In this document: positions 2,708 to 19,373 of the stretch, one piece after another
Position numbering within the stretch: the stretch's first letter is position 1
Layout of the letters: each line of letters opens with the position of its first letter
Source of the DNA: Neorhizobium galegae bv. orientalis str. HAMBI 540
GTDB lineage: Bacteria; Pseudomonadota; Alphaproteobacteria; Rhizobiales; Rhizobiaceae
Reading direction: 5' to 3'
NCBI RefSeq assembly: GCF_000731315.1
Contig: NZ_HG938353.1
Coordinates: 4,030,001-4,094,000 of the forward strand
Length of the DNA: 64,000 nucleotides
The notes under the pieces: model-generated
Told to the model about the DNA's origin: nothing
Seen by the model: only the letters and a program-made list of their open reading frames with translations
The model's database searches: none
Made by a program: the position numbers and the translations under genes

Positions 2708-2959
2708 ATGAACGAGACCATTCGCGGATTGCTGACACGGGTGGGCGGCCTTCCGGTCGCCGTGACGGAGCTGGAAGATGCTGCCGATCTCTATGCAGCC
2801 GGGCTTTCCTCCTTCGCATCGGTGCAGCTGATGTTGGGCCTGGAAGAGGCCTTTGACATCGAATTCCCGGATAGCCTTTTGAACCGCAAGTCCTTCGCCA
2901 GCATTGCGGCGATCGAGCACACGGTTTCTCACATCTTGAAAGCCTCCGAGGCCGCCTGA
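2708..2959 (+). CDS. Small acyl carrier protein of the aminoacyl-carrier cluster
   Basis: This 83-residue stand-alone carrier protein is of the phosphopantetheine-binding family. Helix II begins at AAGLSSFASVQLM, where the second Ser (residue 35) occupies the attachment position. The Asp that normally precedes this serine (DSL) is Ser here, a known variation among non-fatty-acid carriers. I chose the ATG at 2708 because a GGGAGA ribosome binding site lies just upstream and the family start pattern fits; an ATG at 2642 would add 22 unconvincing residues. The stop is one base from the next gene, a dehydrogenase, and the amino acid:carrier-protein ligase is two genes on. This strongly suggests the protein carries an aminoacyl thioester rather than a fatty acyl chain. 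Confidence 0.88.
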   Translation: MNETIRGLLTRVGGLPVAVTELEDAADLYAAGLSSFASVQLMLGLEEAFDIEFPDSLLNRKSFASIAAIEHTVSHILKASEAA

Positions 2960-2960
2960 G

Positions 2961-4142
2961 ATGAACCTTCCCGTCTTTGCCGCCGATATGAGCCTCAGCG
3001 CCCGCGCTCACCGCGTGGCGGCCGTGGCGGCTGAATTCGCCGAACGCGTCGACCATGACGGCCGCTTCCCCCGCGAGGCGGTCGATGCAATGAAGGCCGA
3101 ACGCCTCATCGGCATCCAGATCCCGGTAGCATTCGGCGGCGAGGGCGCTTCCATCACCGAGATCGCCGAGGTCTGCTCCATCCTGGGACAGTCCTGTGCC
3201 TCGAGCGCCATGGTTTTCGCCATGCACCAGATCAAGGTTTCGAGCCTCGTGGTGCACGGGGGCGACAGCGCCTGGCACATGGATTTCATGCGCGAGCTCG
3301 CCGGCCGCCAGCTTCTCGTCGCCTCCGCGACGACCGAAGGTGGCATCGGCGGCAATATGCGCAACTCGATCTGCGCGATCGAGGTCGACGGCGACGTCTG
3401 CCGGCTGACCAAGGACGCAACGGTGATTTCCTACGGCGCCCACGCCGATGTCATCATGATCACCTCGCGCTCGAACGAGAAGGCCGCCCCGACCGACCAG
3501 GTCATGACCGTCTTCAAACAGGGCCAATATACCCTGCAGAAGACCGTCGACTGGGATACGCTTGGCATGCGCGGCACCTGCTCCGACGGCTTCCTCTTCA
3601 ATGGCGAAGCACCTTCGGTCCAGATTTTCCCGAAACCGTTCGCCGAAATCGCGGCGCAGTCGATGCTCGCCACCTCGCATCTCCTCTGGAGCGCTGTCTG
3701 GTACGGCATTGCCGCTGATGCGGTACTACGCGCCCAGGCTTTCGTGCGCGCCGCGGCCCGCAAGTCCAATGGCACCCAGCCGCCCGGCGCGCTGAGGCTC
3801 GCCGAAGCGTCGAACCTGCTGCAGCTCCTCAAGGGCAATATCCTGTCGGGCCTCAAGACCTACGCGGATGCGAAGCTCGATCCCGACAAACTGTCGTCCA
3901 TGGCCTTTTCGATCGCCATGAACAATATCAAGCTCGCCTCTTCCGAGACGATCCTGACCATCATCAACCAGGCGATGATCATCTGCGGCATCATGGGCTA
4001 CAAGAACGGCACGCCCTACAGTCTCGGCCGGCATCTTCGCGACGCGCATTCCGCCCAGCTGATGATTTCCAACGACCGCATTCTCGGCAATACGTCGACC
4101 ATGCTGCTCGTTCAGAAACCGGACACCAGCCTGCTCGGCTGA
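2961..4142 (+). CDS. Acyl-CoA dehydrogenase-like flavoprotein
   Basis: This 393-residue protein has the acyl-CoA dehydrogenase fold: an N-terminal helical domain (about residues 5-110), a beta-barrel middle domain with ATTEGGIGG and LGMRGTCSDGF, and a C-terminal helical domain with the RDAHSAQLMISNDRI block. In classical enzymes this last block carries the IYEGT glutamate base; here the region reads ISNDR, so the standard base is absent. In this cluster the likely substrate is an aminoacyl group on the neighbouring carrier protein, not acyl-CoA. The reaction (desaturation or oxygenation) is not determined by the sequence. It is transcribed with the carrier protein gene, one base downstream of it. 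Confidence 0.87.
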   Translation: MNLPVFAADMSLSARAHRVAAVAAEFAERVDHDGRFPREAVDAMKAERLIGIQIPVAFGGEGASITEIAEVCSILGQSCASSAMVFAMHQIKVSSLVVHGGDSAWHMDFMRELAGRQLLVASATTEGGIGGNMRNSICAIEVDGDVCRLTKDATVISYGAHADVIMITSRSNEKAAPTDQVMTVFKQGQYTLQKTVDWDTLGMRGTCSDGFLFNGEAPSVQIFPKPFAEIAAQSMLATSHLLWSAVWYGIAADAVLRAQAFVRAAARKSNGTQPPGALRLAEASNLLQLLKGNILSGLKTYADAKLDPDKLSSMAFSIAMNNIKLASSETILTIINQAMIICGIMGYKNGTPYSLGRHLRDAHSAQLMISNDRILGNTSTMLLVQKPDTSLLG

Positions 4143-4188
4143 CGCCCCATCACTTCAGATGTAATTATTTAAAGAATGAGGTGAATCC

Positions 4189-5100
4189 ATGGATCTGCAA
4201 GTTTCCTTTCTCGACCGCCTGTTTGATGCAGGCCTGCTGATCGAGACCGGCGTCGACGGACTGTATGGCCGCAGCGGCCAGTTCGAAGACGTCATTGCCG
4301 CCTTCGAACGGCTGATCGACAAGGTCGGCGGTGCCGACGGTGCGGAGGCGATGCGCTTCCCGCCGGGCATGAACCGTGCCTTCTTCGAGACCAGCGGCTA
4401 TATGAAGAGCTTTCCGCAGCTCGCCGGCACGGTGCACTCGTTCTGCGGCAACGAGCTCGACCACATGAGCCTGCTGAAATGCATGGAAGTTGGCGACGAG
4501 GACTGGACCAAGGGCCAGGAAGCGACCGACATCGTGCTGACGCCGGCTGCCTGCTATCCGCTCTACCCGACCGTTGCACGCCGGGGCAACCTGCCCGCCG
4601 GCGGCGGTCTTTTCGACCTGCAGAGCTACTGTTTCCGCCACGAACCCTCCAAGGATCCGGCCCGCCAGCAGCTTTTCCGGATGCGGGAATATGTCTGCAT
4701 GGGTACCGAACAACACGTGACCGATTTCCGCCAACTGTGGATGGACCGGGGCGTCGAGATGATGAAGTCTGTCGGCCTTGACGTTACCATCGACATCGCC
4801 AACGACCCTTTCTTCGGCCGCGCCGGCAAGATGCTGGTCAACAACCAGCGCGACCAGAACCTGAAATTCGAGCTGCTGATCCCCATCACCTCCGTCGCCC
4901 AGCCGACCGCCTGCATGAGCTTCAACTATCATCAGGACAGTTTCGGCCTGAAATGGGGCCTCAACCTGGAAGACGGCAGCGTCGCGCATACGGCCTGCGT
5001 CGGTTTCGGCCTGGAACGGATCGCGCTTGCGCTTTTCCACACCCACGGTCTGGACGTGAAAGAGTGGCCGGAACACGTCCGTGCCACGCTCTGGGGCTGA
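4189..5100 (+). CDS. Amino acid:[carrier protein] ligase (class II aaRS-like)
   Basis: This 303-residue protein resembles the catalytic domain of atypical seryl-tRNA synthetases but lacks the N-terminal tRNA-binding coiled-coil arm. It contains the motif-2-like stretch [19 protein letters not shown] and the motif-3-like stretch [16 protein letters not shown]. Three probable zinc ligands, Cys122, Glu167 and Cys270, have the same mutual spacing that I remember for the Bradyrhizobium enzyme Bll0957 (Cys131/Glu176/Cys279), which activates glycine and transfers it to a carrier protein instead of tRNA. The expected role is ATP-dependent loading of glycine or alanine on the phosphopantetheine of the carrier protein encoded at 2708. 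It lies 46 bases after the dehydrogenase, with a GAATGAGGTG ribosome binding site. The amino acid specificity is inferred. Confidence 0.93.
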
Positions 5101-5104
5101 TCCC

Positions 5105-6088
5105 ATGACGGCGGTGTTTCCCGCGCTCGATCCGGGCAACTACACGACGCATGCGCTGCATTCAGCCGAGCGCATGTGGCCGGAGACGAATTGTTACGTC
5201 GATCTGTGGATCGAAGTGCTTTCGGCGCAGGGCCTGCCGCCGGAAGCGATGCTTGGTTTCACCCTGACCCAGGATTTCGAAGGCGACCAGTTCACCTTCT
5301 TCAAGGTGCCGCTGGAGGATCTCGAAACCCTGTTCGGCATTCGCGTGACCGAACTGGCGATCTTCGACCGGCCGGAACGGCATGTCGCAGAGCAGATCCA
5401 CCGCGGCCGGCTGACGCTGCTCGAGCTCGACAGCTTTTATCTGCCCGATACGCGGGGCGTCGCCTATCGCCAGGAGCACGGGAAAACGACGGTGGCGATC
5501 AACCGGCTCGACCTCGAAAGCCGCGGGCTCGACTATTTCCACAATGGCGGCTTCTTCACCCTTTCCGGCGAAGATTTCGATGGCCTGTTCCAGTTGAACG
5601 CGGCCCCGGACGCGCTGCCCTTCCTGCCTTATACGGAATTCGCCAAGTTCCCCGCGGCCTATCCGGATGCGAGGGAAATTCGCGAGACCGCATGGAAACT
5701 GCTCAGGCATCATTTTGCCCGGCGGCCGGAGGACAATCCGATCCGTGCCTTTGCGAAAGTTTTCCCGAAGCAGGTCGAGCAGATTGCCGACAGGGATTTT
5801 GGCTTCTTCCACAAATATGCGTTCAACACGCTCCGCCAGCTCGGCGCCAATTTCGAGCTTCTGGCGAGCCATCTCGCATGGCTGAACCCCAACGCATTCG
5901 CTCAGTCAGAACAGCAGGCGCTGAAGATTTCGGAAGTGGCAAAATCCACCCAGTTCCAACTTGCCCGCGCGCTTACCCGCAAGAAGTTCGAGCCGCTCGC
6001 AACGGCGCTCGATCCGGCCGCTGATGCCTGGGATCTGCTGATGCGCGACCTGGCCTCGACGCTGACCCAGACCCGCGAGGCCGCGTGA
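5105..6088 (+). CDS. DUF1839 family protein
   Basis: This 327-residue soluble protein has no transmembrane segment or signal peptide. It matches the DUF1839 family, which is known mainly as a companion of carrier-protein ligase genes. Recognisable blocks are PETNCYVDLWIEVLSAQGL near the N-terminus, DFEGDQFTFFKVP, and YFHNGGFFTLSGEDFDGLF in the middle. The ATG at 5105 follows the ligase stop by four bases. Its coupling to the ligase suggests that it acts on the aminoacyl-carrier or helps transfer the aminoacyl group, but no biochemical function is known to me. It overlaps the next gene by four bases (GTGA). Confidence 0.85.
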   Translation: MTAVFPALDPGNYTTHALHSAERMWPETNCYVDLWIEVLSAQGLPPEAMLGFTLTQDFEGDQFTFFKVPLEDLETLFGIRVTELAIFDRPERHVAEQIHRGRLTLLELDSFYLPDTRGVAYRQEHGKTTVAINRLDLESRGLDYFHNGGFFTLSGEDFDGLFQLNAAPDALPFLPYTEFAKFPAAYPDAREIRETAWKLLRHHFARRPEDNPIRAFAKVFPKQVEQIADRDFGFFHKYAFNTLRQLGANFELLASHLAWLNPNAFAQSEQQALKISEVAKSTQFQLARALTRKKFEPLATALDPAADAWDLLMRDLASTLTQTREAA

Positions 6089-8568
6089 GCCTTCTTATCC
6101 CGATCGGATCAAAGACCAGCCTTCTTGCCGAAGGCTGGTCTTTGACGTTGACGGAGCCAGGCGCCTACACCCTGTCGGCCGACCTTCCTTCGGATCTGGA
6201 ATACCTGCCGGCCATGGTGCCCGGCACGGTCGCCGCCGCCCTGGAAGCCGCAGGCCGCTTCGACCGTAACAATCCCGAACCGCTGATCGACAGGGATGCC
6301 TGGTATCGCCGCTCGCTTGCCGGCGAAACGCCGGGACCGGCAATCCTGCGGTTTGCGGGCCTCGCGACGGTGGCCGAAGTGTATCTCGACGAGACACTGA
6401 TCCTGTCCTCGGCCAGCATGTTCGAAAGCCACGACGTTGCGGTCGAGTTGACCGGCACGGAAACACTGTCGATCTGCTTTCGGGCCTTGAGACCGCATCT
6501 GGGCAGGACCGGACCTCGCGCCCGCTGGCGACCGCGGCTGATGAACCAGCAGGGGCTTCGGCTGATCCGTACCACCGCGCTGGGCTTCATGCCCGGTTGG
6601 AGCCCGGAAATTCATGCGGTGGGGCCTTGGCGGCCGGTTTCGGTGACGCGTGCCAACGATAGCCGCTTGGCTTCGCCCCCCTCGTCCGGTCCCACAGGCC
6701 ACCTTCTCCCCGCGGGAGAGAAGAGGGAGTTTGCGGTTTCGGCGACGCTCGATGGAAGCGGAACAGGCATTTTGAATGTCGGCTTTGCTTTCGACGGACC
6801 GCCCCGGGATTTCCGGCTTGTCTGCAACGGCACCGAGGCGCGCTTCACGAACGACGGCGGACGATATTCGGCCGAGCTTTGTCTGCCGGAGATAAAACCC
6901 TGGTGGCCGCATACCCACGGCGAGCCGGCACTGCATGACGTGACACTCAAGGTCGAGGACAAGGAATTCCCGATCGTTCGCACCGGCTTTCGAAGCCTGA
7001 CGGTCGATCGCGGCACCGATGGCGATGACTTCGCCGTCGTCGTCAACGGTCAGAAAATATTCTGCCGCGGTGCCGTCTGGACTTCCGCCGACATCGCAAA
7101 GCTGCCTGGCGACCGCGCGAGCTACGAATCCTGGTTGAGGCTCGCGAAAGAAGCGGGCATGAACATGATCCGCATTCCGGGCATCGCGACCTATGAAAGC
7201 CCGGAATTCTTCACGCTATGCGACGAACTCGGCCTGCTGGTCTGGCAGGACCTGATGTTCGCCAATTTCGACTATCCCGCCGGCGATCCGGACTTCATGA
7301 TTCACGTGAAAACCGAGGTCGAGCAGTTCCTGACGGCGACACAAGCCTCGCCGTCGCTCGCGGTCCTTTGCGGCGGCAGCGAGATCTATCAGCAGGGCGC
7401 AATGCTCGGCCTGCCGGAACGCATCTGGAAAGGCCCGCTCTGCGAAGAGATCCTCGGCACCTTGGCAGCCAAGTGCCGGCCGGACCTTCCCTATGTGGCG
7501 AATTCCCCTTCAGGCGGCGCATTGCCTTTTTATCCGAATGCGGGTGTCGCCCATTATTACGGTGTCGGGGCCTACAAACGGCCGATCGACGATGCACGGC
7601 GGGCAAACGTCCGTTTCGCAGCCGAGTGCCTGGCTTTCTCCAACCTCTCCGCGTCGGAAACCCTCGCCGGCGGCAAGGCCGGGATCCCGCGCGACATCGG
7701 AGCAGACTGGGATTTCGAAGACGTGCGCGACCATTATCTGGGCACGCTCTACGGTGTCGATCCCCTGGCGCTGAGAGCGCAGCAGCCGGAACGCTATCTC
7801 GCCCTTTCCCGTGCCGTGACCGGCGAAGTGATGGAGGCGGCTTTCGCCGAATGGCGGCGGCCTGGCTCGACCTGCAACGGCGCGCTCGCCTTCACTTTCC
7901 AGGATGTCATGCCCGGCCCCGGTTGGGGCGTCGTTGGCGTCGACGGCAGGCCGAAACCAGCCTGGTTTGCGCTGAAGCGCGCCTTCCGGCCGATCCAGGT
8001 CGTGTTTGCCGACGAGGGCACCAATGGGCTGGATATTCACCTTATCAATGAAACGCCGACCGATCTGCCGGTCGTTCTCGAGATCGCCTGCCTTCGGGAC
8101 GGCAGGATGCCGGTCGTATCGGGTCGCCGCGATCTGACACTTAAAGCCGGAAGCAGCGAGAGCGTTGCTTCGACCGACCTGTTCGGTGCCTTCTTCGACG
8201 CGAACTACGCCTATCGTTTTGGCCCGCCTTCCCACAATGTGACGGTGGCGCGCATCCGGCATGAGGAAACCGGCGAGATCCTCTCGGAAGCTTTCCATTT
8301 TCCGCTCGGGCGTGCCAATGCTTTTCATGATGCCGAGATCACGGCGTCGGTGACCGGGGACGAGGGAGAATTCTGGCTGGAGATTTCGACCGACGTCTTC
8401 GCGCAGACGGTCAGCATCGAATGCGACAATTACCGCGCGGCGGACAATGGATTCCATCTGGCGCCGGGCGCAATCAGGCGTATCGGCCTTGCCGCGCTTT
8501 CCAAAACCACCGAACGACCCGCTGGCATGATCCGATCACTCGGCGGCGACCGATCCGTCCACTTTTGA
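6085..8568 (+). CDS. GH2 family (beta-mannosidase-like) glycoside hydrolase
   Basis: This 827-residue protein has the glycoside hydrolase family 2 layout: an N-terminal jelly-roll sugar-binding domain (about 1-190), an immunoglobulin-like domain (about 215-320), and a TIM barrel (about 320-640) followed by beta domains. The acid/base glutamate is probably Glu433 in CGGSEIYQQ (the NNE position) and the nucleophile Glu514 in FAAECLAFSN, so both catalytic residues look intact. There is no signal peptide, so it is probably cytoplasmic. The GTG start overlaps the DUF1839 stop. Residues 198-215 are encoded by a piece of a dispersed repeat, placed in a domain linker. Its position in an aminoacyl-carrier operon implies a glycosylated intermediate or product; the sugar is unknown. 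Confidence 0.85.
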   Translation: MSLLIPIGSKTSLLAEGWSLTLTEPGAYTLSADLPSDLEYLPAMVPGTVAAALEAAGRFDRNNPEPLIDRDAWYRRSLAGETPGPAILRFAGLATVAEVYLDETLILSSASMFESHDVAVELTGTETLSICFRALRPHLGRTGPRARWRPRLMNQQGLRLIRTTALGFMPGWSPEIHAVGPWRPVSVTRANDSRLASPPSSGPTGHLLPAGEKREFAVSATLDGSGTGILNVGFAFDGPPRDFRLVCNGTEARFTNDGGRYSAELCLPEIKPWWPHTHGEPALHDVTLKVEDKEFPIVRTGFRSLTVDRGTDGDDFAVVVNGQKIFCRGAVWTSADIAKLPGDRASYESWLRLAKEAGMNMIRIPGIATYESPEFFTLCDELGLLVWQDLMFANFDYPAGDPDFMIHVKTEVEQFLTATQASPSLAVLCGGSEIYQQGAMLGLPERIWKGPLCEEILGTLAAKCRPDLPYVANSPSGGALPFYPNAGVAHYYGVGAYKRPIDDARRANVRFAAECLAFSNLSASETLAGGKAGIPRDIGADWDFEDVRDHYLGTLYGVDPLALRAQQPERYLALSRAVTGEVMEAAFAEWRRPGSTCNGALAFTFQDVMPGPGWGVVGVDGRPKPAWFALKRAFRPIQVVFADEGTNGLDIHLINETPTDLPVVLEIACLRDGRMPVVSGRRDLTLKAGSSESVASTDLFGAFFDANYAYRFGPPSHNVTVARIRHEETGEILSEAFHFPLGRANAFHDAEITASVTGDEGEFWLEISTDVFAQTVSIECDNYRAADNGFHLAPGAIRRIGLAALSKTTERPAGMIRSLGGDRSVHF
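6676..6729. repeat. Dispersed repeat fragment inserted in frame in the GH2 gene
   Basis: The 54-base stretch is pyrimidine/purine biased and contains GGCCACCTTCTCCCCGCGGG with an internal near-palindrome CTTCTCCCCGCGGGAGAGAAG. Repeats with the same wording (GGCCACCTTCTCCCC) are frequent between genes in rhizobia. Here it encodes about 18 residues (PPSSGPTGHLLPAGEKRE) between the first and second domains of the glycosidase, without stops or frameshift. It looks like one arm only; no second arm is visible nearby. Confidence 0.6.
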
Positions 8569-10377
8569 ATAGACGTCTTCTTCCAGAGGAAACCGGAAAG
8601 CCATTTCCCTCAATGCCTCGAGATAGACCTTGCGGGCATGCTCGGGCGTCAGGTTGTGATCGGCATCCGGAATGATTTTCGGCGATACGTTTGGAAAGCG
8701 AGCCAAGCCCGCCCCGTCATGGCCGAAATAGAAATCGTACTGTTCGAGACCGAGATCGTTCTCGCTGTAAATCAACGAGACGGGCATGCCACGCTGGTGG
8801 AGGGTGCGGAAAGCACCGTAGATCGCCCGCCCCTCCGGCAGGAATCCGCGGAAAGCGTGAAAGACCCTGCCTTTGGCCCGGTTGCCGAGACTTTTGGCGA
8901 TATTGCGGACGGCAGCGACGGTATTGACCTCGCCCCTCAGGATGCGTTTGAAGGTATCGGCCCGCAAGGCCCGCTTGCGGTAGTCCCGAAGACTGCGCGC
9001 GCCATTGACGATCATGTCCTCGACGGAGCGGCCGGGGCGCCAGCGGAAAACCGCCGGATTGACCGAGACATTGCCGGCGATGCGTGGTTCGACCAGTGAT
9101 GCCTGGAAGCCGAGAAAGGCACCGCTGCAGCGGCCGGCGGCGACGACCGGTGTCATGTTGCAGGCTTCGAGGAAATCGATCGCTTCCGAGACGTCGGCAT
9201 TCTGGTCCGAATGATAGAGAACCTGGTCCAGCCGACCAGGCACCGGCGGACTGTCACCGACATTGGCCGTGTCGAAACGCAAGGACGGAATGCCGGAACG
9301 AGCAAGCGCGCGAGCAAGCGCTACCGTCGAACGGCCCCAGCCGGCATGCCGGTCATAGGCCGATGTCAGGAAAAGCACCGTTGCGCCCGCGCGATCGTGC
9401 AATGGTTCGCAGAGAACCCCGAAAAGGCGGCTGTTGAGGCCGAAGCGTGCCGGCGTTTCGGTGAAGCCGTCGCCAGCGAGAGGGGCCGCCGACACTGGCG
9501 GGCGTGGTGGCGCGGAAGCAGCCGGTCCGGACGGTAATGCGGCGATCCAGTTCGTCAGATTATCGGCAACTGTCAGCGGTAATTTGACGATCACCGGGTT
9601 TGAGACGAGCTTGTCGTAACCTTCGAAAGCCTGTTCATCGACATCCGCGCCAAGCGCGCGCAGCCGAACGGCAAACTCCTTGTCGGAGGGCCGATCGGCC
9701 CGGCCGATGACCAGCACGCGTGGCGCAGGCGGCCGGTCGACCTTTAACAGATTGACGTTGCGAACCTCGTCGGCGATCTCACCGGGCATGGTGAGCGACG
9801 CGATAGAGACGCCGATTTCACTATGCTGTGCTTCGGTAAGGCCCAGATTTTCGTCGACCACCCTGGACCAGACCGCGAGCTCGCGGATATGCAGACGGCC
9901 GGAAACGACCGGCGCCATATAAACGATGGCGTCCAGCGCCTCGATCTCCTCGGCGGCCCTGGTGGCGACGAGCGCCCCCAGCCCCTGCGAGATGACGGCG
10001 ATGCGCTCGCAGCCGGAAAGCTCCTTGAGATGCGCGGCAGCGGAAACGAGACTGTCGGACCAGACGGAAAGCCCGCCTTTGAAATCGATATCGTCAAGCG
10101 CATCGCCGGTGCCGGGATAATCGAACCGCAGGCTGGCAATGCCGCGATCGGCGAGCTTTTCGGAAATGATGCGCCAGAATTTGCGCGTGCACATTTCCTC
10201 CAGCCCCCAGGGACTGGCGAATAGTACGGCAGTGCTTGACGGCCGGGTACCGTTCGACGGCGGCGTGAAAAGCCCGACCGTGCCATTGAAGGTCAACGGT
10301 TCGGAAGCCGAGCGTGGTAGCAGCGGCGATATCTCCCCGGCGGACGGGGATTTATTTCGGGCGTGCATCATAGCCAT
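8536..10377 (-). CDS. Tandem alpha/beta hydrolase protein
   Basis: This 613-residue protein contains two alpha/beta hydrolase domains in series (about 40-300 and 330-613), joined by an Ala/Pro-rich linker. Domain 1 has a nucleophile elbow reading AVISQGLGAL: Ser130 is present but the first Gly of GxSxG is Val. Domain 2 reads GRCSGAF, placing Cys417 at the nucleophile position, with a late DADHN histidine. The start at 10377 (MAMMHARNK) is the most likely; the frame stays open further upstream but the extra sequence is low-complexity and unlike protein. Its 3' end overlaps the convergent GH2 gene by 33 bases. A role in releasing or transferring an acyl group in the adjacent carrier-protein pathway is plausible but inferred. 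Confidence 0.78.
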   Translation of the reverse strand: MAMMHARNKSPSAGEISPLLPRSASEPLTFNGTVGLFTPPSNGTRPSSTAVLFASPWGLEEMCTRKFWRIISEKLADRGIASLRFDYPGTGDALDDIDFKGGLSVWSDSLVSAAAHLKELSGCERIAVISQGLGALVATRAAEEIEALDAIVYMAPVVSGRLHIRELAVWSRVVDENLGLTEAQHSEIGVSIASLTMPGEIADEVRNVNLLKVDRPPAPRVLVIGRADRPSDKEFAVRLRALGADVDEQAFEGYDKLVSNPVIVKLPLTVADNLTNWIAALPSGPAASAPPRPPVSAAPLAGDGFTETPARFGLNSRLFGVLCEPLHDRAGATVLFLTSAYDRHAGWGRSTVALARALARSGIPSLRFDTANVGDSPPVPGRLDQVLYHSDQNADVSEAIDFLEACNMTPVVAAGRCSGAFLGFQASLVEPRIAGNVSVNPAVFRWRPGRSVEDMIVNGARSLRDYRKRALRADTFKRILRGEVNTVAAVRNIAKSLGNRAKGRVFHAFRGFLPEGRAIYGAFRTLHQRGMPVSLIYSENDLGLEQYDFYFGHDGAGLARFPNVSPKIIPDADHNLTPEHARKVYLEALREMAFRFPLEEDVYSKVDGSVAAE

Positions 10378-11833: not shown

Positions 11834-14479
11834 ATGTCCGACGTCCTGCCAGAACTCATCGAGCCTTCTGCAAACGACCTTTCGATCGACGCGATCGAGG
11901 ACGTTCTACGCGACCACTACGGGCTTTCCGGGCAGATCTTCCCGATCGAAGGACGGCAGAACCCCTACTTCCTGATCGACAACGGCCACCTACGCTATCT
12001 GCTCAAGATATCGCCCGCCAACGATCCCATCGAGGAGATCGAAGCGGAACACGCATTGATGCGCCATATCCTGCGCAGTCCCGATGGGCCGCGGGTTCCC
12101 GAACCCGTGATGACCAAAGACGGCGGCGACATGCTTGTCCTGCCGCTCGGCGGGGAAGACCGGCGTGTTCGCCTCCTGACGTTCCTCGAAGGTGCGTCGC
12201 CGCCGACCGGTGAAAAACTGTCGGATCGATCCGTCGCCGCCTTCGGATCGATCTCGGCCGAGCTTGCGAAAAGCCTCCAGGATTTCGAACATCCGGTCCT
12301 CGAGCGCGAGCCGGAAGGCGACCTGCGCAAGGCCGGCCCCCAGACGGTCTCGCTTCTGTCCACCGTCGCCGACCAGGAAATCCGCGACGTGATCGCCAAG
12401 GCGATGGTGACGGCGCTTCGGCGCATCCAGCCATTCGGCCCAAGCCTCAGGGTCGCGGCCGCACATCAGAACCTGAACGCCGGAACCGTCATCGGTGAAG
12501 ATACGGATGGCACGTGGATGCCGACCGGCGTGACGGATTTCTCAGGTATTTCCAACGGCTGGCTCGTCGCCGGTTTTGCCAATACCTGCGCCTACCTGCT
12601 CGCGGACCGCGACGGAGATCCGTTCGCCCTGCTGCCGGCGATCCGCGCCTACCACGAGATCTATCCGTTCACCCTGGCCGAACTCGAAGCCCTGTGGCCG
12701 CTGGTCGTCGCCCGCACCGGCATCCTCGCCGCCGAAGCCGAGAGCCAGCAGGCCTTGTCGCCCGATGACACGCAGGCAAAGGAGGAGACCGAGAAACGCC
12801 GTGCGGTGCTCAATGGCGCAACCGCAGTTTCCCCGGCACAGGTCTTTGCAGCCATCCTCGATGCCACGGGAATGACGAAATCGCTGCCGGAAATCGGTCG
12901 GCTCCTGCCCGATATCGACCCGGACAGCTTCCGGATGGTGGACCTCAGCGTCACCAGCCCGCTCCTCTACGGCGGCAACTGGACGGATGCCGACAACGAC
13001 TGGAAATTGCTTGCCCATATCGCCCGGGAAACCAGCCGCGCCAGCACCCGCTACGGCGAATACCGGCTTTCGAAAAGCAGCACTGACCCCCAACAGGAGC
13101 CGGAAAGTTTCGCACTCCACATCGATGCCTGCCTACCCGCCCGGACGGCGGCGGTGGCGCCCTTCGCGGCAACGCTGAAAAGTGCCGGTCCCCGCCTTGT
13201 CCTTGTCGGGCGCGACCTGACCCTCCATGTCGAAGGCCTCGAATGCACGCTTGCCGAAGAGACGGAGCTTGCCGCCGGCGATCCGCTCGGCGTAATCGCC
13301 GGAGCGGATAACTCCGTTGGCGGCGTGCGGCTCCGGTTCTGCCTCGATGCGGATCTCGTGCCGCCGCTTTTCTGCACGCCGAACGATGTCGGCACGTGGT
13401 CGAGGTTATATCCTTCTCCCGCTGCGCTGCTCGGCATCGATGCGAATGCCCCGGCTCCGAAACATTCCGATCAGCCCGTCCGCGGCTGGAGGGAATATCT
13501 CTTCGACGCGACGGGGCGCACCGCGCTCGATCTCGGCGGCCAGGCGCCGCTGATCGGCCACGGACATCCGCGCCTCGCCGCCGCGACCTACCGCCAGACC
13601 ATCCTGCTCAACCGCGCCACGGGCCAACCATCCGAGCCGGAGGAGGTCTTGCGAGCGCAACTGGCGGAGCTTGCGCCTGAAGGGTTGAGCCATGTCGCGT
13701 TTGCTTCCAGCCGTGGCGACGCTCTGGATCTCGCCTTCCGGCTCGTCCGCGCTCACACGAACAAGGCCCGGATCATCGGCCTGCCGGGTTTCCGGGTGGA
13801 CCGTCGCGATCCGGACCTTTTCACTGTCCCCACCATCGGCACCGCAGCCGATATGATCCACGATCTCAAGGACGTCGCAGCCGTGCTCGCGAACGGCTAC
13901 GACGAGGCCTTGCACCTGGACGAGCCGCTGGCCGAACTTGGCGAGAAGGCCGGCCTGCTGATCGTCGACGAAACCGGAGCCGGCTACGGCCGTCTTGGCC
14001 ACCACATCTGGGGTTTCTCGCACCGGGGCCTGGCGCCTGACCTTCTGATCGCAGACGGGCCGGACGGAGGGGCGCCGGCGCTTCTGCTGACACGGCCCGA
14101 AATCGCGGCAAGCCTTGCCGCGGACGTTCGTCCGCGGGCGATCTCTCCGGTCGAGGCCGCTGCGGCCGCAGCGGCGCTCGATGTCATCAGGGAAGAACAA
14201 TTGCGGGAGAACACCCGCGAGATCGGCGGCCATCTGAAGACGCGGCTCGAAAGCCTTGCCGAACGCTTTCCGGCGATCCGTGCCGTGGCCGGCAGCGGCC
14301 TGCTGCTCGTGGTCGATCTGGCGGACGAGGCGGCGGACCTCGGCGAACGACTGCGACCCGGGTTTATCGTGGACGACAGCATACCGAAGCGCATTGTCCT
14401 GCGTCCGCCGCTATGCCTCAGCCGCGAAAGCGCGGACGGGTTAGTGGATCGGATCGAGACCCTGCTCTCGGAAATTTGA
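11834..14479 (+). CDS. Degenerate APH / M23 / class III aminotransferase fusion protein
   Basis: This 881-residue protein resembles the rhizobial three-module fusion of an aminoglycoside-phosphotransferase-like kinase (about 25-320), an M23 peptidase-like module (about 370-530) and a class III PLP aminotransferase (about 545-881). By eye all three are inactive. The kinase motif HxDxxxxN reads His211-Gln-Asn213 with Thr218, so Asp and Asn are lost. The M23 HxxxD reads HIDAC and the HxH pair reads RLR. The PLP-lysine position in DLLIADGPDGG is Gly742. Intact relatives, as I remember them, are near 1000 residues and keep these residues. The frame is full length with normal codon use, so this is a maintained pseudoenzyme or a fast-evolving paralogue, not obvious decay. 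Confidence 0.75.
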   Translation: MSDVLPELIEPSANDLSIDAIEDVLRDHYGLSGQIFPIEGRQNPYFLIDNGHLRYLLKISPANDPIEEIEAEHALMRHILRSPDGPRVPEPVMTKDGGDMLVLPLGGEDRRVRLLTFLEGASPPTGEKLSDRSVAAFGSISAELAKSLQDFEHPVLEREPEGDLRKAGPQTVSLLSTVADQEIRDVIAKAMVTALRRIQPFGPSLRVAAAHQNLNAGTVIGEDTDGTWMPTGVTDFSGISNGWLVAGFANTCAYLLADRDGDPFALLPAIRAYHEIYPFTLAELEALWPLVVARTGILAAEAESQQALSPDDTQAKEETEKRRAVLNGATAVSPAQVFAAILDATGMTKSLPEIGRLLPDIDPDSFRMVDLSVTSPLLYGGNWTDADNDWKLLAHIARETSRASTRYGEYRLSKSSTDPQQEPESFALHIDACLPARTAAVAPFAATLKSAGPRLVLVGRDLTLHVEGLECTLAEETELAAGDPLGVIAGADNSVGGVRLRFCLDADLVPPLFCTPNDVGTWSRLYPSPAALLGIDANAPAPKHSDQPVRGWREYLFDATGRTALDLGGQAPLIGHGHPRLAAATYRQTILLNRATGQPSEPEEVLRAQLAELAPEGLSHVAFASSRGDALDLAFRLVRAHTNKARIIGLPGFRVDRRDPDLFTVPTIGTAADMIHDLKDVAAVLANGYDEALHLDEPLAELGEKAGLLIVDETGAGYGRLGHHIWGFSHRGLAPDLLIADGPDGGAPALLLTRPEIAASLAADVRPRAISPVEAAAAAAALDVIREEQLRENTREIGGHLKTRLESLAERFPAIRAVAGSGLLLVVDLADEAADLGERLRPGFIVDDSIPKRIVLRPPLCLSRESADGLVDRIETLLSEI

Positions 14480-15164: not shown

Positions 15165-15401
15165 TCAGAATGCGGTGAAGGTCATCGTCGTCAACGAACG
15201 TTCGATGCCTGGAATGGAGGCAATCTTCTCGTTGACGAAGCGGCCGATCTCGTCATTGTCCTTGATATAGACCTTCAGCAGCAGGTCCCATTCGCCGCTG
15301 GTCGAATAAAGCTCGGAGGCGAGTTCGGTCTTGTAGATGGCGTCGGCAACCTCGTAGGTCTTGCCGGGCTTGCAGCGGAGCTGGACGAAAATAGGTTTCA
15401 T
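15165..15401 (-). CDS. Stand-alone Lrp/AsnC ligand-binding (RAM) domain protein
   Basis: This 78-residue protein corresponds to the C-terminal regulation-of-amino-acid-metabolism domain of Lrp/AsnC regulators (MKPIFVQLRCKPGKTYEVAD ... SGEWDLLLKVYIKD) and lacks the helix-turn-helix half. Such single-domain proteins bind amino acids and may modulate full-length Lrp proteins or act as small sensors. It is encoded just downstream of a LysR regulator on the same strand (53-base gap) and next to lysine/pipecolate catabolic genes, so an amino acid ligand from that pathway is plausible. It ends at a bidirectional terminator. Confidence 0.88.
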   Translation of the reverse strand: MKPIFVQLRCKPGKTYEVADAIYKTELASELYSTSGEWDLLLKVYIKDNDEIGRFVNEKIASIPGIERSLTTMTFTAF

Positions 15402-15454
15402 GGACGTCTTCCCGTCGGTCGGATCGCCTAAGCGATCATGATGGACATGTCCGA

Positions 15455-16393
15455 CTATTGGCCGATGCGACCGCCGTTCGCAAGCGCATCGTGGTGAATC
15501 TCTTGCCTGTGGATTTCCTGGATGATCCACTCCCTGAAAGCTGCAAGTGGCGGATAGGTGGCTCGGTCGGGCGGATAGGCGAGATGGTATTGGCCGGTCT
15601 CCATCCTCTCGGCGTCCACGGCCGGCACCAGCAGGCCCTGTTCCAGCTCCCGGCCGATCAGGAACCGCGGCAGCAGCGCAGCGCCGAGGCCGGCGGTTGC
15701 CGCCTCGACCATGGTGATGAACTGGTCGAACAGCATGCCGTGCAGCCCGTCGAAGACGATCCGGTTCTTGGAAAACCACAATTCCCAGGCGTCCGGCCGC
15801 GTATTGAGATGCAGAAGGGGTGCCTGAAGCATATCTGCCGGTGTCTGAAGATTATGCCGCGCTTTGAATTCCGGACTGCAGGCCGGCAGCACTTCCTCAT
15901 CCATCAGGAAGGTGAGCGCCGCGCCCGGCCAGCGAGCCGCACCGAAATGAATGGCTGCATCCAGCGTATCGAACCGGAAATCGAACGGTTCGAGCCGTGT
16001 GATCAGGTTCACGACCATGCCCGGATGCGCATCGAGAAAACGCCCGATCCGCGGCGTCAGCCAGCGCGTGCCGAAAAACGGCAGGATGGCAAGATTCAGC
16101 GTGCCGCCGGAGGGATTGGCCCTGAGGTTCAGCGATGCATGCGAAATGCGCCTGAGCGCCTCCCGCACCTCGCGGGCATAACCGTCTCCGGCAAGCGTCA
16201 GCCGGATCGTCTGACGCTCCCGTAAAAACAGCGCCACGCCGAGCTGTTTTTCCAGCGCCGAAATCTGACGGCTGACGGCGCTCTGGGTCAGGCCGAGCTC
16301 GTTTGCCGCCGCCGTGACGCTGCCGGTGCGGGCAGCCGCCTCGAAGGCGGAGAGCAGCGAGAATGACGGAAGAAAGCGCCGGGGCGGCAGCAT
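15455..16393 (-). CDS. LysR-family transcriptional regulator (GcvA-like)
   Basis: This 312-residue regulator has an N-terminal winged helix-turn-helix (about 8-66, FEAAARTGSVTAAANELGLT then QSAVSRQISALEKQLG) and a LysR substrate-binding domain (about 95-295). The sequence style is that of the GcvA subgroup, which often controls divergent amino-acid catabolic genes. It is transcribed away from the pipecolate oxidase and semialdehyde dehydrogenase genes, with 98 bases between the start codons that contain a candidate inverted-repeat operator. It most likely controls those genes in response to a lysine-pathway intermediate. Confidence 0.92.
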   Translation of the reverse strand: MLPPRRFLPSFSLLSAFEAAARTGSVTAAANELGLTQSAVSRQISALEKQLGVALFLRERQTIRLTLAGDGYAREVREALRRISHASLNLRANPSGGTLNLAILPFFGTRWLTPRIGRFLDAHPGMVVNLITRLEPFDFRFDTLDAAIHFGAARWPGAALTFLMDEEVLPACSPEFKARHNLQTPADMLQAPLLHLNTRPDAWELWFSKNRIVFDGLHGMLFDQFITMVEAATAGLGAALLPRFLIGRELEQGLLVPAVDAERMETGQYHLAYPPDRATYPPLAAFREWIIQEIHRQEIHHDALANGGRIGQ

Positions 16394-17831: not shown

Positions 17832-19373
17832 ATGACGCTCGCCACTCTCGATCTCGCTGCTGAGGTAAAAGCCATCCTGAGCGATCTCGGCGTGAAAGCC
17901 GAAAGCTATACCGGCGGCACGCTCGCCGTCCGTTCGCCGATCACCGGCCTGGAAATCGGCAAACTGCGCGAAGAAACCGCCGCAGGCGCCGCAAAGGCGA
18001 TCGATGCCGCCCACGCGGCCTTCCTCGAGTGGCGGCTGGTACCGGCTCCGAAGCGCGGCGAACTGATCCGCCTGCTCGGCGAGGAACTGCGCGCGGCCAA
18101 GACCGCACTCGGCCGGCTGGTCTCCATCGAAGTCGGCAAGGTCACCTCCGAAGGCCTCGGTGAAGTGCAGGAAATGATCGACATCTGCGATTTCGCGGTC
18201 GGCCTGTCCCGCCAGCTCTACGGCCTGACGATCGCCACCGAACGTTCCGAACACCGGATGATGGAGACCTGGCATCCGCTCGGCGCGATCGGCATCATTT
18301 CCGCCTTCAACTTCCCGGTCGCCGTCTGGTCCTGGAATGCGGCGCTCGCCATCGTCTGCGGCAATTCCACCGTCTGGAAGCCGTCGGAAAAGACCCCGCT
18401 GACCGCGCTCGCCACCCAGGCGATCTTCGAAAAGGCGCTCGCCCGTTTCGTCGCGGATGGCGGGAAGGCCCCGAAGAACCTCTCGACCGTCCTGATCGGC
18501 GGCCGCGATATCGGCGAAGTCCTGGTCGACCACGACAAGATCCCGCTGGTTTCCGCGACCGGTTCCACCGCGATGGGCCGCGCTGTCGGCCCGCGGCTGG
18601 CGTCGCGCTTCGCCCGCTCGCTGCTGGAACTCGGCGGCAACAATGCCGCGATCGTCGCCCCGACCGCCGATCTCGACCTGACGCTCCGCGGCGTCGCCTT
18701 TTCCGCCATGGGCACGGCCGGCCAGCGCTGCACCTCGCTCCGCCGCCTCTTCGTGCATGACAGCGTCTATGAAACGCTGGTGCCGCGCCTCGCCAAGGCC
18801 TACCAGTCCGTGACGATCGGCAGCCCGCTCGAAAACGGCAATCTCGTCGGCCCGCTGATCGACAAGGCCGCTTACGACAAGATGCAGAAGGCGCTGGAAG
18901 CCGCCAGGGCCGAAGGCGGCAAGGTGACCGGTGGCGAACGTGTTCACCAGGACGAGGCGGCAGACGCCTATTACGTCCGCCCGGCGATCGTCGAGATGCC
19001 GGCCCAGTCCGGTCCGGTCAAGGACGAGACCTTTGCCCCGATCCTCTACGTGATGAAGTATTCGAGCTTTGACGAGGCGCTCGCCCTGCACAACGACGTG
19101 CCGCAGGGCCTTTCCTCCTCGATCTTCACCAACGACATGCGCGAGGCGGAAACCTTCGTCTCCGCCCGCGGCTCGGATTGCGGCATCGCCAACGTCAATA
19201 TCGGCCCCTCGGGTGCCGAAATCGGCGGAGCGTTCGGCGGCGAGAAGGAAACCGGCGGCGGCCGTGAATCCGGCTCCGACGCATGGCGCGTCTATATGCG
19301 CCGCGCCACCAACACGCTGAACTACGGCCGCACCCTGCCGCTCGCGCAGGGCGTCAAGTTCGACATCGAATAA
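17832..19373 (+). CDS. amaB: L-aminoadipate-semialdehyde dehydrogenase (ALDH7 family)
   Basis: This 513-residue NAD-dependent aldehyde dehydrogenase is of the antiquitin (ALDH7) family. Recognisable blocks are ISAFNFPVAVWSWNAALA, the LELGGNNAAIVAP block with the base Glu, and GTAGQRCTSLRRLF with the catalytic Cys. Members oxidise alpha-aminoadipate semialdehyde to aminoadipate. It follows the pipecolate oxidase by 56 bases, giving a two-step pipecolate-to-aminoadipate route. I prefer the ATG at 17832 (MTLATLDLA), preceded by CGGAGACTGAC, over an ATG 30 bases upstream. Confidence 0.92.
   Translation: MTLATLDLAAEVKAILSDLGVKAESYTGGTLAVRSPITGLEIGKLREETAAGAAKAIDAAHAAFLEWRLVPAPKRGELIRLLGEELRAAKTALGRLVSIEVGKVTSEGLGEVQEMIDICDFAVGLSRQLYGLTIATERSEHRMMETWHPLGAIGIISAFNFPVAVWSWNAALAIVCGNSTVWKPSEKTPLTALATQAIFEKALARFVADGGKAPKNLSTVLIGGRDIGEVLVDHDKIPLVSATGSTAMGRAVGPRLASRFARSLLELGGNNAAIVAPTADLDLTLRGVAFSAMGTAGQRCTSLRRLFVHDSVYETLVPRLAKAYQSVTIGSPLENGNLVGPLIDKAAYDKMQKALEAARAEGGKVTGGERVHQDEAADAYYVRPAIVEMPAQSGPVKDETFAPILYVMKYSSFDEALALHNDVPQGLSSSIFTNDMREAETFVSARGSDCGIANVNIGPSGAEIGGAFGGEKETGGGRESGSDAWRVYMRRATNTLNYGRTLPLAQGVKFDIE

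Follow-up and report, generated by a model that had tools for sequence, protein, structure and literature searches.

What becomes of an amino acid that a bacterium has loaded onto a carrier protein? The question is raised by six genes in a stretch of 64,000 nucleotides from Neorhizobium galegae bv. orientalis str. HAMBI 540 (NZ_HG938353.1, positions 4,030,001 to 4,094,000; G000:C1:4030001-4094000 in our numbering), which is called the window below. They encode a carrier protein (CP), an acyl-CoA-dehydrogenase-fold flavoprotein (ACD), an amino acid--[carrier protein] ligase (LIG), a DUF1839 protein, a GH2 beta-mannosidase-like glycosidase and a tandem alpha/beta-hydrolase (HYD). Ligases of this kind were described in 2010 with their loading activity, and to our knowledge no product has become known since. 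We think it fairly probable that the six genes form an aminoacyl-transfer module for an exopolysaccharide of the Wzx/Wzy type. This proposal builds on direct observations, namely the set of six genes and how it is conserved, the joint occurrence of DUF1839 and HYD, the polysaccharide context in many relatives and the conserved catalytic residues.

Conservation and co-occurrence of the six genes

On the forward strand of the window CP (2708-2959; its ATG lies inside a longer open frame starting at 2642) is followed after a gap of 1 base by ACD (2961-4142), after 46 bases by LIG (4189-5100) and after 4 bases by DUF1839 (5105-6088; an alternative GTG start lies upstream at 5081). GH2 (6085-8568) overlaps DUF1839 by 4 bases. 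HYD lies convergently on the reverse strand (8536-10377, its ATG again inside a longer open frame) and overlaps GH2 by 33 bases. This layout had been described in an earlier reading of the letters alone (the sequence-only reading) and was confirmed by the open reading frames (ORFs). Each of the six genes was backed by Pfam and NCBIfam profile matches. Gene calls inside our scripts came from a simple custom caller.

The sequence-only reading had also taken the six genes for one pathway, and they do behave as a set. The named loci used here are the best 80 of at least 588 confirmed relatives; they are titled as rhizobia or Rhizobiales and are close kin. ACD, LIG, DUF1839 and GH2 were present in 80 of 80, CP in 79 (the sole miss lies at a contig start) and HYD in 60, a count of copies nearby, within the loci. 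An absence of HYD and GH2 beside the ligase in most relatives, named earlier as evidence that would speak against a joint pathway, was looked for and is not what we found. All six genes are annotated consecutively in Mycetohabitans rhizoxinica (NC_014718.1) and Azospirillum brasilense (NZ_CP032347.1), and the first five were found in R. leguminosarum and Caballeronia plasmids.

The ligase model NF005479 matched above its cut-off in 10 of 385 genomes of the class, 28 of 398 of the phylum and 64 of 297 of the order, the samples overlapping. Stretches of up to 20 kb around 74 ligase matches were surveyed. The type A arrangement reads CP-ACD-LIG-DUF1839-GH2, with HYD before, after or outside the stretch. 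Type B consists of ACD-LIG and a divergent CP (13 of 15 order genomes; no CP was found in two), and DUF1839, GH2 and HYD were not found in its stretches. Type C, CP-LIG-HYD alone, was seen in L025; L030 is similar, with a weak partial CP match and an incomplete HYD. Twelve loci with distant ligases below the cut-off (125-171 bits; L031-L037 and L218-L222) held none of the other five genes in the stretch.

DUF1839 occurred in 49 of the 297 order genomes (21 of 122 genera), and full-length HYD (460-801 bits) in exactly those 49 (Fisher p ~1e-55, ignoring relatedness). LIG was above its cut-off in all 49. Fifteen further LIG genomes had neither DUF1839 nor HYD, save for a weak split HYD match (151 and 118 bits) in G688, which was kept apart from the 49 full HYDs. 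In 32 of the 49 genomes the best HYD lay within 10 kb of DUF1839; in 8 it was farther off but shared the contig, and in 9 the two were on different contigs, G959 among these 9 representing a contig break.

The association extends beyond the sample: HYD and GH2 were sought in 12 genomes, of which 10 lie outside the order. All five type A genomes outside the order that lacked HYD in the fetched locus carry one elsewhere: G607, G681 and G677 have it at a distance of 10-21 kb from the ligase, and G613 and G186 on a different contig. Neither HYD nor GH2 was found by genome search in the type B genome G140. The type C genomes G131 and G316 possess HYD (incomplete in G316), and GH2 was not found in them. 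In G186 GH2 and HYD overlap on contig C12, with CP, ACD, LIG and DUF1839 on C19; GH2 and HYD therefore form a sub-unit.

Type B loci perhaps represent a different pathway from the same loading step. Twelve of them (L024, L028, L201-L204, L208 and L212-L216) carry a GNAT-like gene (cluster 27, also present in L105), and eight a second small carrier-protein-like gene (cluster 59; names by eye). Genes resembling epmA and epmB, another system in which an aminoacyl-tRNA synthetase (aaRS) paralogue attaches an amino acid to a protein, were seen in Rhizobium loci, in 60 of the 80 named ligase loci, and efp-like genes in 57 (all by eye). In L076 such genes lie directly upstream of CP (L076:5465-8301, for example). 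The position of epmA, epmB and efp (clusters 6 to 8) beside CP probably reflects shared chromosomal order.

Exopolysaccharide genes around HYD

The neighbours of HYD were examined where it lies away from the cluster, separated from DUF1839 by more than 10 kb or by a contig boundary. Seventeen order genomes qualified; with G950 and G933 left out and the second HYD copies L257, L260, L264, L265 and L266 excluded, the set (A6) comprised 15 loci and 116 proteins. It includes L274, which by eye starts with a GH2 end at a contig break, and L262, L268 and L273, which lie 13-17 kb from DUF1839. The control set (A7) comprised 15 arbitrary stretches of type A genomes with 120 proteins, L286, L288, L292 and L293 having been left out for match. 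Near the detached HYDs Pfam families of polysaccharide synthesis were frequent: WecG/TagA in 10 of the 116 proteins, GH5 in 8, Wzx in 5, Wzz in 5 and Wzy in 4, besides glycosyltransferases of group 1 (6-7) and family 2 (5), a protein being able to match several families. None of these polysaccharide families was among the control families with at least two members that entered the comparison, which took in 25 of 74 families for A6 and 25 of 199 for A7; a single-member control family could be hidden.

In L184 the five-gene cluster and genes for a family 4 glycosyltransferase (GT4), GH5, HYD, Wzx, GT4 and WecG are contiguous on one strand. By our custom gene calls HYD carries a Wzx-like N-terminal extension in 26 loci, 24 of which belong to the 80 named ones; Rhizobium has such fusions. 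The one fusion checked with Pfam, in L065, showed Polysacc_synt_3 followed by the hydrolase 2 and hydrolase 1 models discussed below. The fusion of Wzx and HYD would place HYD at the membrane.

In the genome of the window, matches to WecG, GH5 and Wzx share a 6.3-kb segment (C1:3.341-3.347 Mb) that lies some 690 kb away from the cluster. The WecG match is the single one in the genome, as is the match to the L184 GH5 (25% identity); the Wzx match is one of six and weak (32 against 28.2 bits). The surrounding genes (C1:3337-3349 kb; L324 and L325) run in the order asparagine-synthase-type amidotransferase, Wzz, GH5, Wzy, WecG, deacetylase, GT4, Wzx, GT4. The amidotransferase is above the cut-off of TIGR01536, and its score of 461 bits against the XrtA amidotransferase model TIGR03108 is below the cut-off of 816.9. 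This Wzx/Wzy locus is a candidate partner of the window cluster.

The Bep locus of Burkholderia and relatives

A second line of context comes from Burkholderia. Bcam1330-1341 is an exopolysaccharide cluster that B. cenocepacia needs for biofilm, and Bcam1334 in it is a TIGR03100 hydrolase (PMC3584217). In B. multivorans (NZ_CP143551.1) two CRP/FNR-type genes are followed by CP, ACD, LIG, DUF1839, GH2 and a VpsR/sigma-54 activator, and then by ManC, a beta-helix protein, two glycosyltransferases, Wzx, a glycosyltransferase, HYD, an acyltransferase, a Wzy-like protein, Wzc and Wza. Ten of these proteins were identified by Pfam, the five cluster genes by profile and the glycosyltransferases and Wzy-like protein by eye and position. 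The genes match the published order from Bcam1340 to Bcam1330, with HYD at the place of Bcam1334; the comparison excludes Bcam1341 and concerns gene order, the J2315 and H111 sequences not being part of it. The five cluster genes are not counted as bep in the accessible portions of the Bep papers (PMC3584217, PMC7084887, PMC5552954, PMC9684580).

The five genes of B. cenocepacia CMCC(B)23006 (NZ_CP091013.1) are likewise bordered by the CRP/FNR pair on one side and by a VpsR/sigma-54 gene of 95% identity on the other, the latter being followed by ManC, Wzx and HYD (68%). Wza (38%) and Wzc (28%) are divergent, and the beta-helix, acyltransferase and Wzy-like proteins are absent from the stretch. 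Cupriavidus metallidurans CH34 carries Wza, Wzc, HYD, ManC, CRP, two DUF1839, GH2, LIG, ACD and CP within ~22 kb. The gene order of the Bep type seen in B. multivorans is kept in part in this species and in B. cenocepacia.

BerA is the CRP/FNR regulator Bcam1349 and BerB the RpoN-linked activator Bcam1342 (PMC5552954, PMC9684580). The six genes between Bcam1342 and Bcam1349 would fit GH2, DUF1839, LIG, ACD, CP and the second CRP/FNR gene, and the cluster may be under cyclic di-GMP (c-di-GMP) control together with the exopolysaccharide genes. VpsR-domain sigma-54 activators that are BerB-like by domain and position adjoin GH2 in L312 (9813-11201) and L313 (9737-11125).

The polysaccharide that its authors assign to Bep has a neutral repeat of four sugars, Gal, Glc, Gal and Man; to prepare it, biofilm was shaken in 0.3 M NaOH for 3 h at 8 degrees, and NMR spectra were taken in 0.3 M NaOD at 50 degrees (PMC7084887). 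An ester-linked aminoacyl group is therefore not expected to survive the isolation and NMR. Because the repeat has no amino sugar, an amide to an amino sugar is impossible on it.

The tandem hydrolase and its kinship to exosortase-A hydrolases

Residue counts here and below refer to relatives above thresholds of 70 bits for CP (139 of 139 matches passed), 500 for ACD (140 of 141), 370 for LIG (143 of 155), 330 for DUF1839 (125 of 126), 1000 for GH2 (119 of 126) and 300 for HYD (87 of 89).

The N-terminal half of HYD matched Hydrolase_4 (38.7 bits, cut-off 27) and the exosortase-A hydrolase 2 model TIGR03101 (62.1 bits, under the cut-off of 202.75); the C-terminal half matched the exosortase-A hydrolase 1 model TIGR03100 (85.1 bits, under the cut-off of 168.45). 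As HYD is below both TIGR cut-offs, it is likened here to the hydrolase 2 plus hydrolase 1 pair and not counted as a member. Its C-terminal half has the triad Cys417-Asp541-His574. Cys417 was found in 85 of the 85 rows having the position, His574 in 84 of 84 and Asp541 in 82 of 84 (Lys and Glu in the others). The nucleophile position of the N-terminal half is occupied by Gly in 76 and by Arg in 11 of 87 rows. HYD is accordingly predicted from its residues to be a dead N-terminal half, lacking a nucleophile, joined to a half that works with a cysteine. The cysteine nucleophile and the nucleophile-less half led us to reject an ordinary esterase.

TIGR03100 gave 7 matches in 200 genomes, 6 of them above the cut-off. 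Like HYD, the exosortase-A (XrtA/PEP-CTERM) exopolysaccharide module combines a nucleophile-less hydrolase 2 with a cysteine hydrolase 1. Of the 7 hydrolase 1 sequences five were inspected (L301, L302, L303, L304 and L307), and all five read G-x-C-D-x-A. The nucleophile position of the hydrolase 2 partners in L301, L302 and L307 is occupied by Arg (by eye), like that of 11 HYD rows. In the same three of the seven loci a carrier-protein-like frame lies within 5 kb of the hydrolases. L307 is a fused hydrolase pair, in which hydrolase 1 scores 170.6 against the cut-off of 168.45 and hydrolase 2 is below its own. The exosortase-A loci differ from ours in that AMP-ligase-like and pyridoxal-phosphate-decarboxylase-like frames (by eye) replace the aaRS-like ligase, and the DUF1839, ACD, LIG and GH2 profiles were unmatched in the seven loci. 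A word search of the PEP-CTERM/EpsH paper of 2006 (PMC1569441) for hydrolase, acyl carrier, decarboxylase and ligase gave nothing.

Carrier protein, ligase and flavoprotein

CP matched the PP-binding family PF00550 (29.9 bits, cut-off 20.8) and NF005480 (112 bits, cut-off 72), and its relatives in the PDB are 4h2w_C (E 9e-31) and Atu2571 (2jq4_A, E 1e-30). Ser35, the phosphopantetheine site, is kept in 139 of 139 relatives. LIG, 98-99% identical to the ligases of the Neorhizobium loci L038 and L039, reached 512.1 bits against NF005479, above the curated cut-off of 357, with 4h2w_A (E 5e-97) and Bll0957 (3mey_A, E 8e-92) as PDB relatives. It thus shares the ligase family of Bll0957 and Atu2573, the latter being, we assume, the amino acid:carrier protein ligase that goes with the carrier Atu2571. 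The protein of 303 aa aligns solely to residues 310-503 of the 518 of the serine--tRNA ligase PRK00960 and is predicted to be a class II aaRS catalytic core without a tRNA-binding domain. A tRNA-dependent role was rejected for lack of that domain. C122, E167 and C270 are conserved in 143 of 143 rows and presumably correspond to the zinc ligands (Cys, Glu, Cys) of Bll0957. Ligases of the Bll0957 type reportedly load glycine or alanine onto cognate carrier proteins. The work on them known to us stops at loading; what is added here is the set of genes downstream and its exopolysaccharide context.

Amino acids are also loaded on a carrier protein and placed on a surface polymer by the Dlt system, in the D-alanylation of teichoic acids. 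Dlt differs in that its ligase is unrelated, and there is no DltB-like or DltD-like gene among the six, no genome-wide search having been made. Membership in a Dlt-like system was rejected because the carrier scored 27.1 bits, under the DltC cut-off of 68.

ACD matched Acyl-CoA_dh_N (PF02771; 44.6 bits, cut-off 22.9) and Acyl-CoA_dh_1 (PF00441; 24 bits, cut-off 22.4). Acyl-CoA dehydrogenases have their catalytic Glu at one of two known positions. In ACD the C-terminal position is non-acidic (Ile in 137 and Val in 3 of 140 rows), and the other, on helix G, is Ser239 in the window (alignments read by eye). A canonical acyl-CoA dehydrogenase was rejected because neither position holds Glu. The oxidation step of the sequence-only reading is uncertain for this reason. 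True dehydrogenases rank first among the PDB relatives of the ACD profile, in which nitrososynthases and DszC-type monooxygenases are also present. ACD adjoins LIG even in the 15 order genomes without DUF1839 and full HYD. Because it accompanies LIG and CP in type B, where the other genes are missing, its substrate is most likely aminoacyl-CP, as far as gene content can tell. The missing catalytic base would favour oxygenation over classical dehydrogenation, and monooxygenation was also suggested in PMC2922099. Three of the 116 proteins near separate HYDs belong to the flavin reductase family, which would fit a monooxygenase.

DUF1839 and GH2

DUF1839 matched PF08893 with 432.9 bits (cut-off 22.5); a search of the PDB gave no relative by sequence (best E 0.44). 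A papain survey of 2023 assigned the family to papain-like proteins with a C(T/S)H triad (PMC10318531). In the window this triad is C38, T136 and H154, numbered from the upstream GTG at 5081; across 125 rows Cys was found in 123, Thr or Ser in 124 and His in 125. DUF1839 would thus be a papain-like cysteine enzyme and is a candidate aminoacyl transferase. Three in-cluster copies are without the Cys (L166, L168 and L315, the last outside the 125 rows). For two of the three a second, Cys-bearing DUF1839 copy was found nearby, and for L166 the stretch ends with its contig; the backing of a Cys-less copy by a Cys-bearing one argues that the Cys matters.

The pairs are L168:10401-11378 and 15235-16299, and L315:22768-23682 and 17980-18924. 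In the in-cluster copies Gln or Arg replaces the Cys, which the second copies keep. Both are likely pseudo-enzyme pairs, judging by these residues.

GH2 matched PF22666 (50.3 bits, cut-off 27) and PF17753 (28.6 bits, cut-off 22.6); PF17786 (21.5 bits) stayed below its cut-off of 23.4. E433 and E514, which we take from motifs to be the catalytic pair, are kept in 119 of 119 rows. No signal peptide was seen by eye, and GH2 appears cytosolic.

Elsewhere in the window an 881-aa ORF (11834-14479) appears by eye to join a kinase-like domain to one resembling class III aminotransferases.

A possible mechanism and the competing explanations

If the six genes do form an aminoacyl-transfer module, the events might be as follows. 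LIG would activate a small amino acid, which the analogy to Bll0957 suggests to be glycine or alanine, and load it onto the phosphopantetheine of CP. ACD would alter the CP-bound aminoacyl group, oxygenation being a likelier reaction than classical dehydrogenation. The acyl group might be relayed via thioesters on two enzymes, DUF1839 and HYD with its cysteine half, to a saccharide built in the cytosol: DUF1839 could take it from CP and HYD pass it to the lipid-linked saccharide, or one of the two could be a proofreading thioesterase. GH2, which travels with HYD and looks cytosolic, may for that reason trim or proofread the glycan, perhaps by removing a protecting or wrong sugar. The decorated unit would be exported by the Wzx flippase. 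The order of the steps, the transferring enzyme, the acceptor (a hydroxyl, giving an ester, or an amine, giving an amide), the amino acid and the role of GH2 are all what we infer from the genes. In its final step the sequence-only reading had foreseen release of the amino acid unit; a product set free in this way is not supported. The cysteine nucleophile in the active half of HYD, the flippase fusion and the polysaccharide neighbours point to a modified exopolysaccharide.

Several observations weigh against such a module. In the window the cluster is flanked by ThiC and PurU (Pfam scan). No glycosyltransferase or flippase was found beside it in the annotated Azospirillum and Caballeronia plasmid stretches, and HYD was not found in the 37-kb Caballeronia stretch. 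HYD relatives of 51-53% identity are titled Brucella/Ochrobactrum, and the constant-partner counts exclude those genomes. There are two candidate cysteine transferases where one would do for a single transfer, the presence of a cytosolic GH2 in a biosynthetic set is left unexplained, and we know of no demonstrated activity beyond loading. Only 11 of the 14 B. multivorans proteins were found in the CMCC(B)23006 stretch (E 1e-20); this strain may therefore produce a variant polymer. Finally, the published Bep repeat carries no substituent (PMC7084887), so that a decoration must be base-labile or absent.

The cluster might instead turn glycine or alanine into a small diffusible metabolite or signal and be merely co-located or co-regulated with exopolysaccharide genes. 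CP, LIG and ACD do resemble small-molecule assembly lines such as prolyl-carrier-protein oxidation (a RedW-like match within the cluster is weak, 32.6 bits against a cut-off of 650), and several genomes show no polysaccharide genes beside the cluster. We nevertheless regard such a product as unlikely, since a glycosidase and a tandem hydrolase, flippase-fused in 26 loci, are constant partners and the HYDs away from the cluster sit in polysaccharide loci. A similarly low probability is given to a division of labour in which HYD and GH2 edit or turn over the exopolysaccharide, with CP, ACD, LIG and DUF1839 as a separate pathway that shares regulation alone. The two contigs of G186 divide the genes in just this way, and Fazli and colleagues suggested quality control for Bcam1334 (PMC3584217); however, the 49 of 49 co-occurrence holds also where the genes are physically separate, and the type C locus L025 links CP and LIG with HYD alone.

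Somewhat more plausible than either, though still doubtful, is attachment of the amino acid to the amino group of a surface sugar, with HYD and GH2 as quality control. It follows a proposal by Iyer and colleagues in a note added in proof (PMC2922099), and the polysaccharide deacetylase in the candidate exopolysaccharide locus of the window genome would expose amines. Against it speaks Bep, near whose gene order the cluster lies in B. multivorans: its published repeat is without an amino sugar. The aminoacyl-transfer module for a Wzx/Wzy-type exopolysaccharide is the reading we prefer to these three.

Relation to earlier proposals

The general idea of surface-sugar aminoacylation has prior art in PMC2922099 and PMC10318531. 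Iyer and colleagues proposed in 2010 that Atu2574, which we equate by position with DUF1839, joins an amino acid to the amino group of a surface sugar, and the neighbourhood they described is shared with ours: ligase, acyl carrier protein, 'Rossmann fold monooxygenase/dehydrogenase', Atu2574 and glycosidase (PMC2922099). The papain survey named glycan processing at the cell wall as a possible role of DUF1839 (PMC10318531). The sequence-only reading knew of no description of the downstream chemistry; part of the neighbourhood had already been interpreted in print as aminoacylation of a surface sugar. Beyond these two papers no link of the ligase to Bep or exopolysaccharide was found in the mostly non-subscription literature searched, and nothing on these genes was found in the accessible part of PMC12013268. 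The constant partnership of HYD, its dead and cysteine halves, its kinship to exosortase-A hydrolases, the flippase fusion and the placement between the Bep regulators are new as far as this literature goes, no precedent having been found in it.

Also new is the idea that alkali stripped Bep of a base-labile amino acid. We suggest, quite tentatively, that Gram-negative biofilm exopolysaccharides of the Bep kind hide a base-labile amino acid ester, possibly oxidised, which is added by the ligase, CP and two cysteine transferases and has been overlooked through isolation in 0.3 M NaOH and analysis in NaOD. If this is true, some of the chemistry of exopolysaccharides may be lost whenever they are extracted with alkali. 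Acyl transfer from a carrier protein would be a function on offer for the exosortase-A hydrolases, which are hypothetical equivalogs in NCBIfam, and the orphan aminoacyl-carrier ligases would be united with them. The ligase is tied to a biofilm locus controlled by c-di-GMP in Burkholderia and to Wzx/Wzy loci in rhizobia, which makes its purpose directly testable. The system would then be a Gram-negative exopolysaccharide counterpart of teichoic acid D-alanylation.

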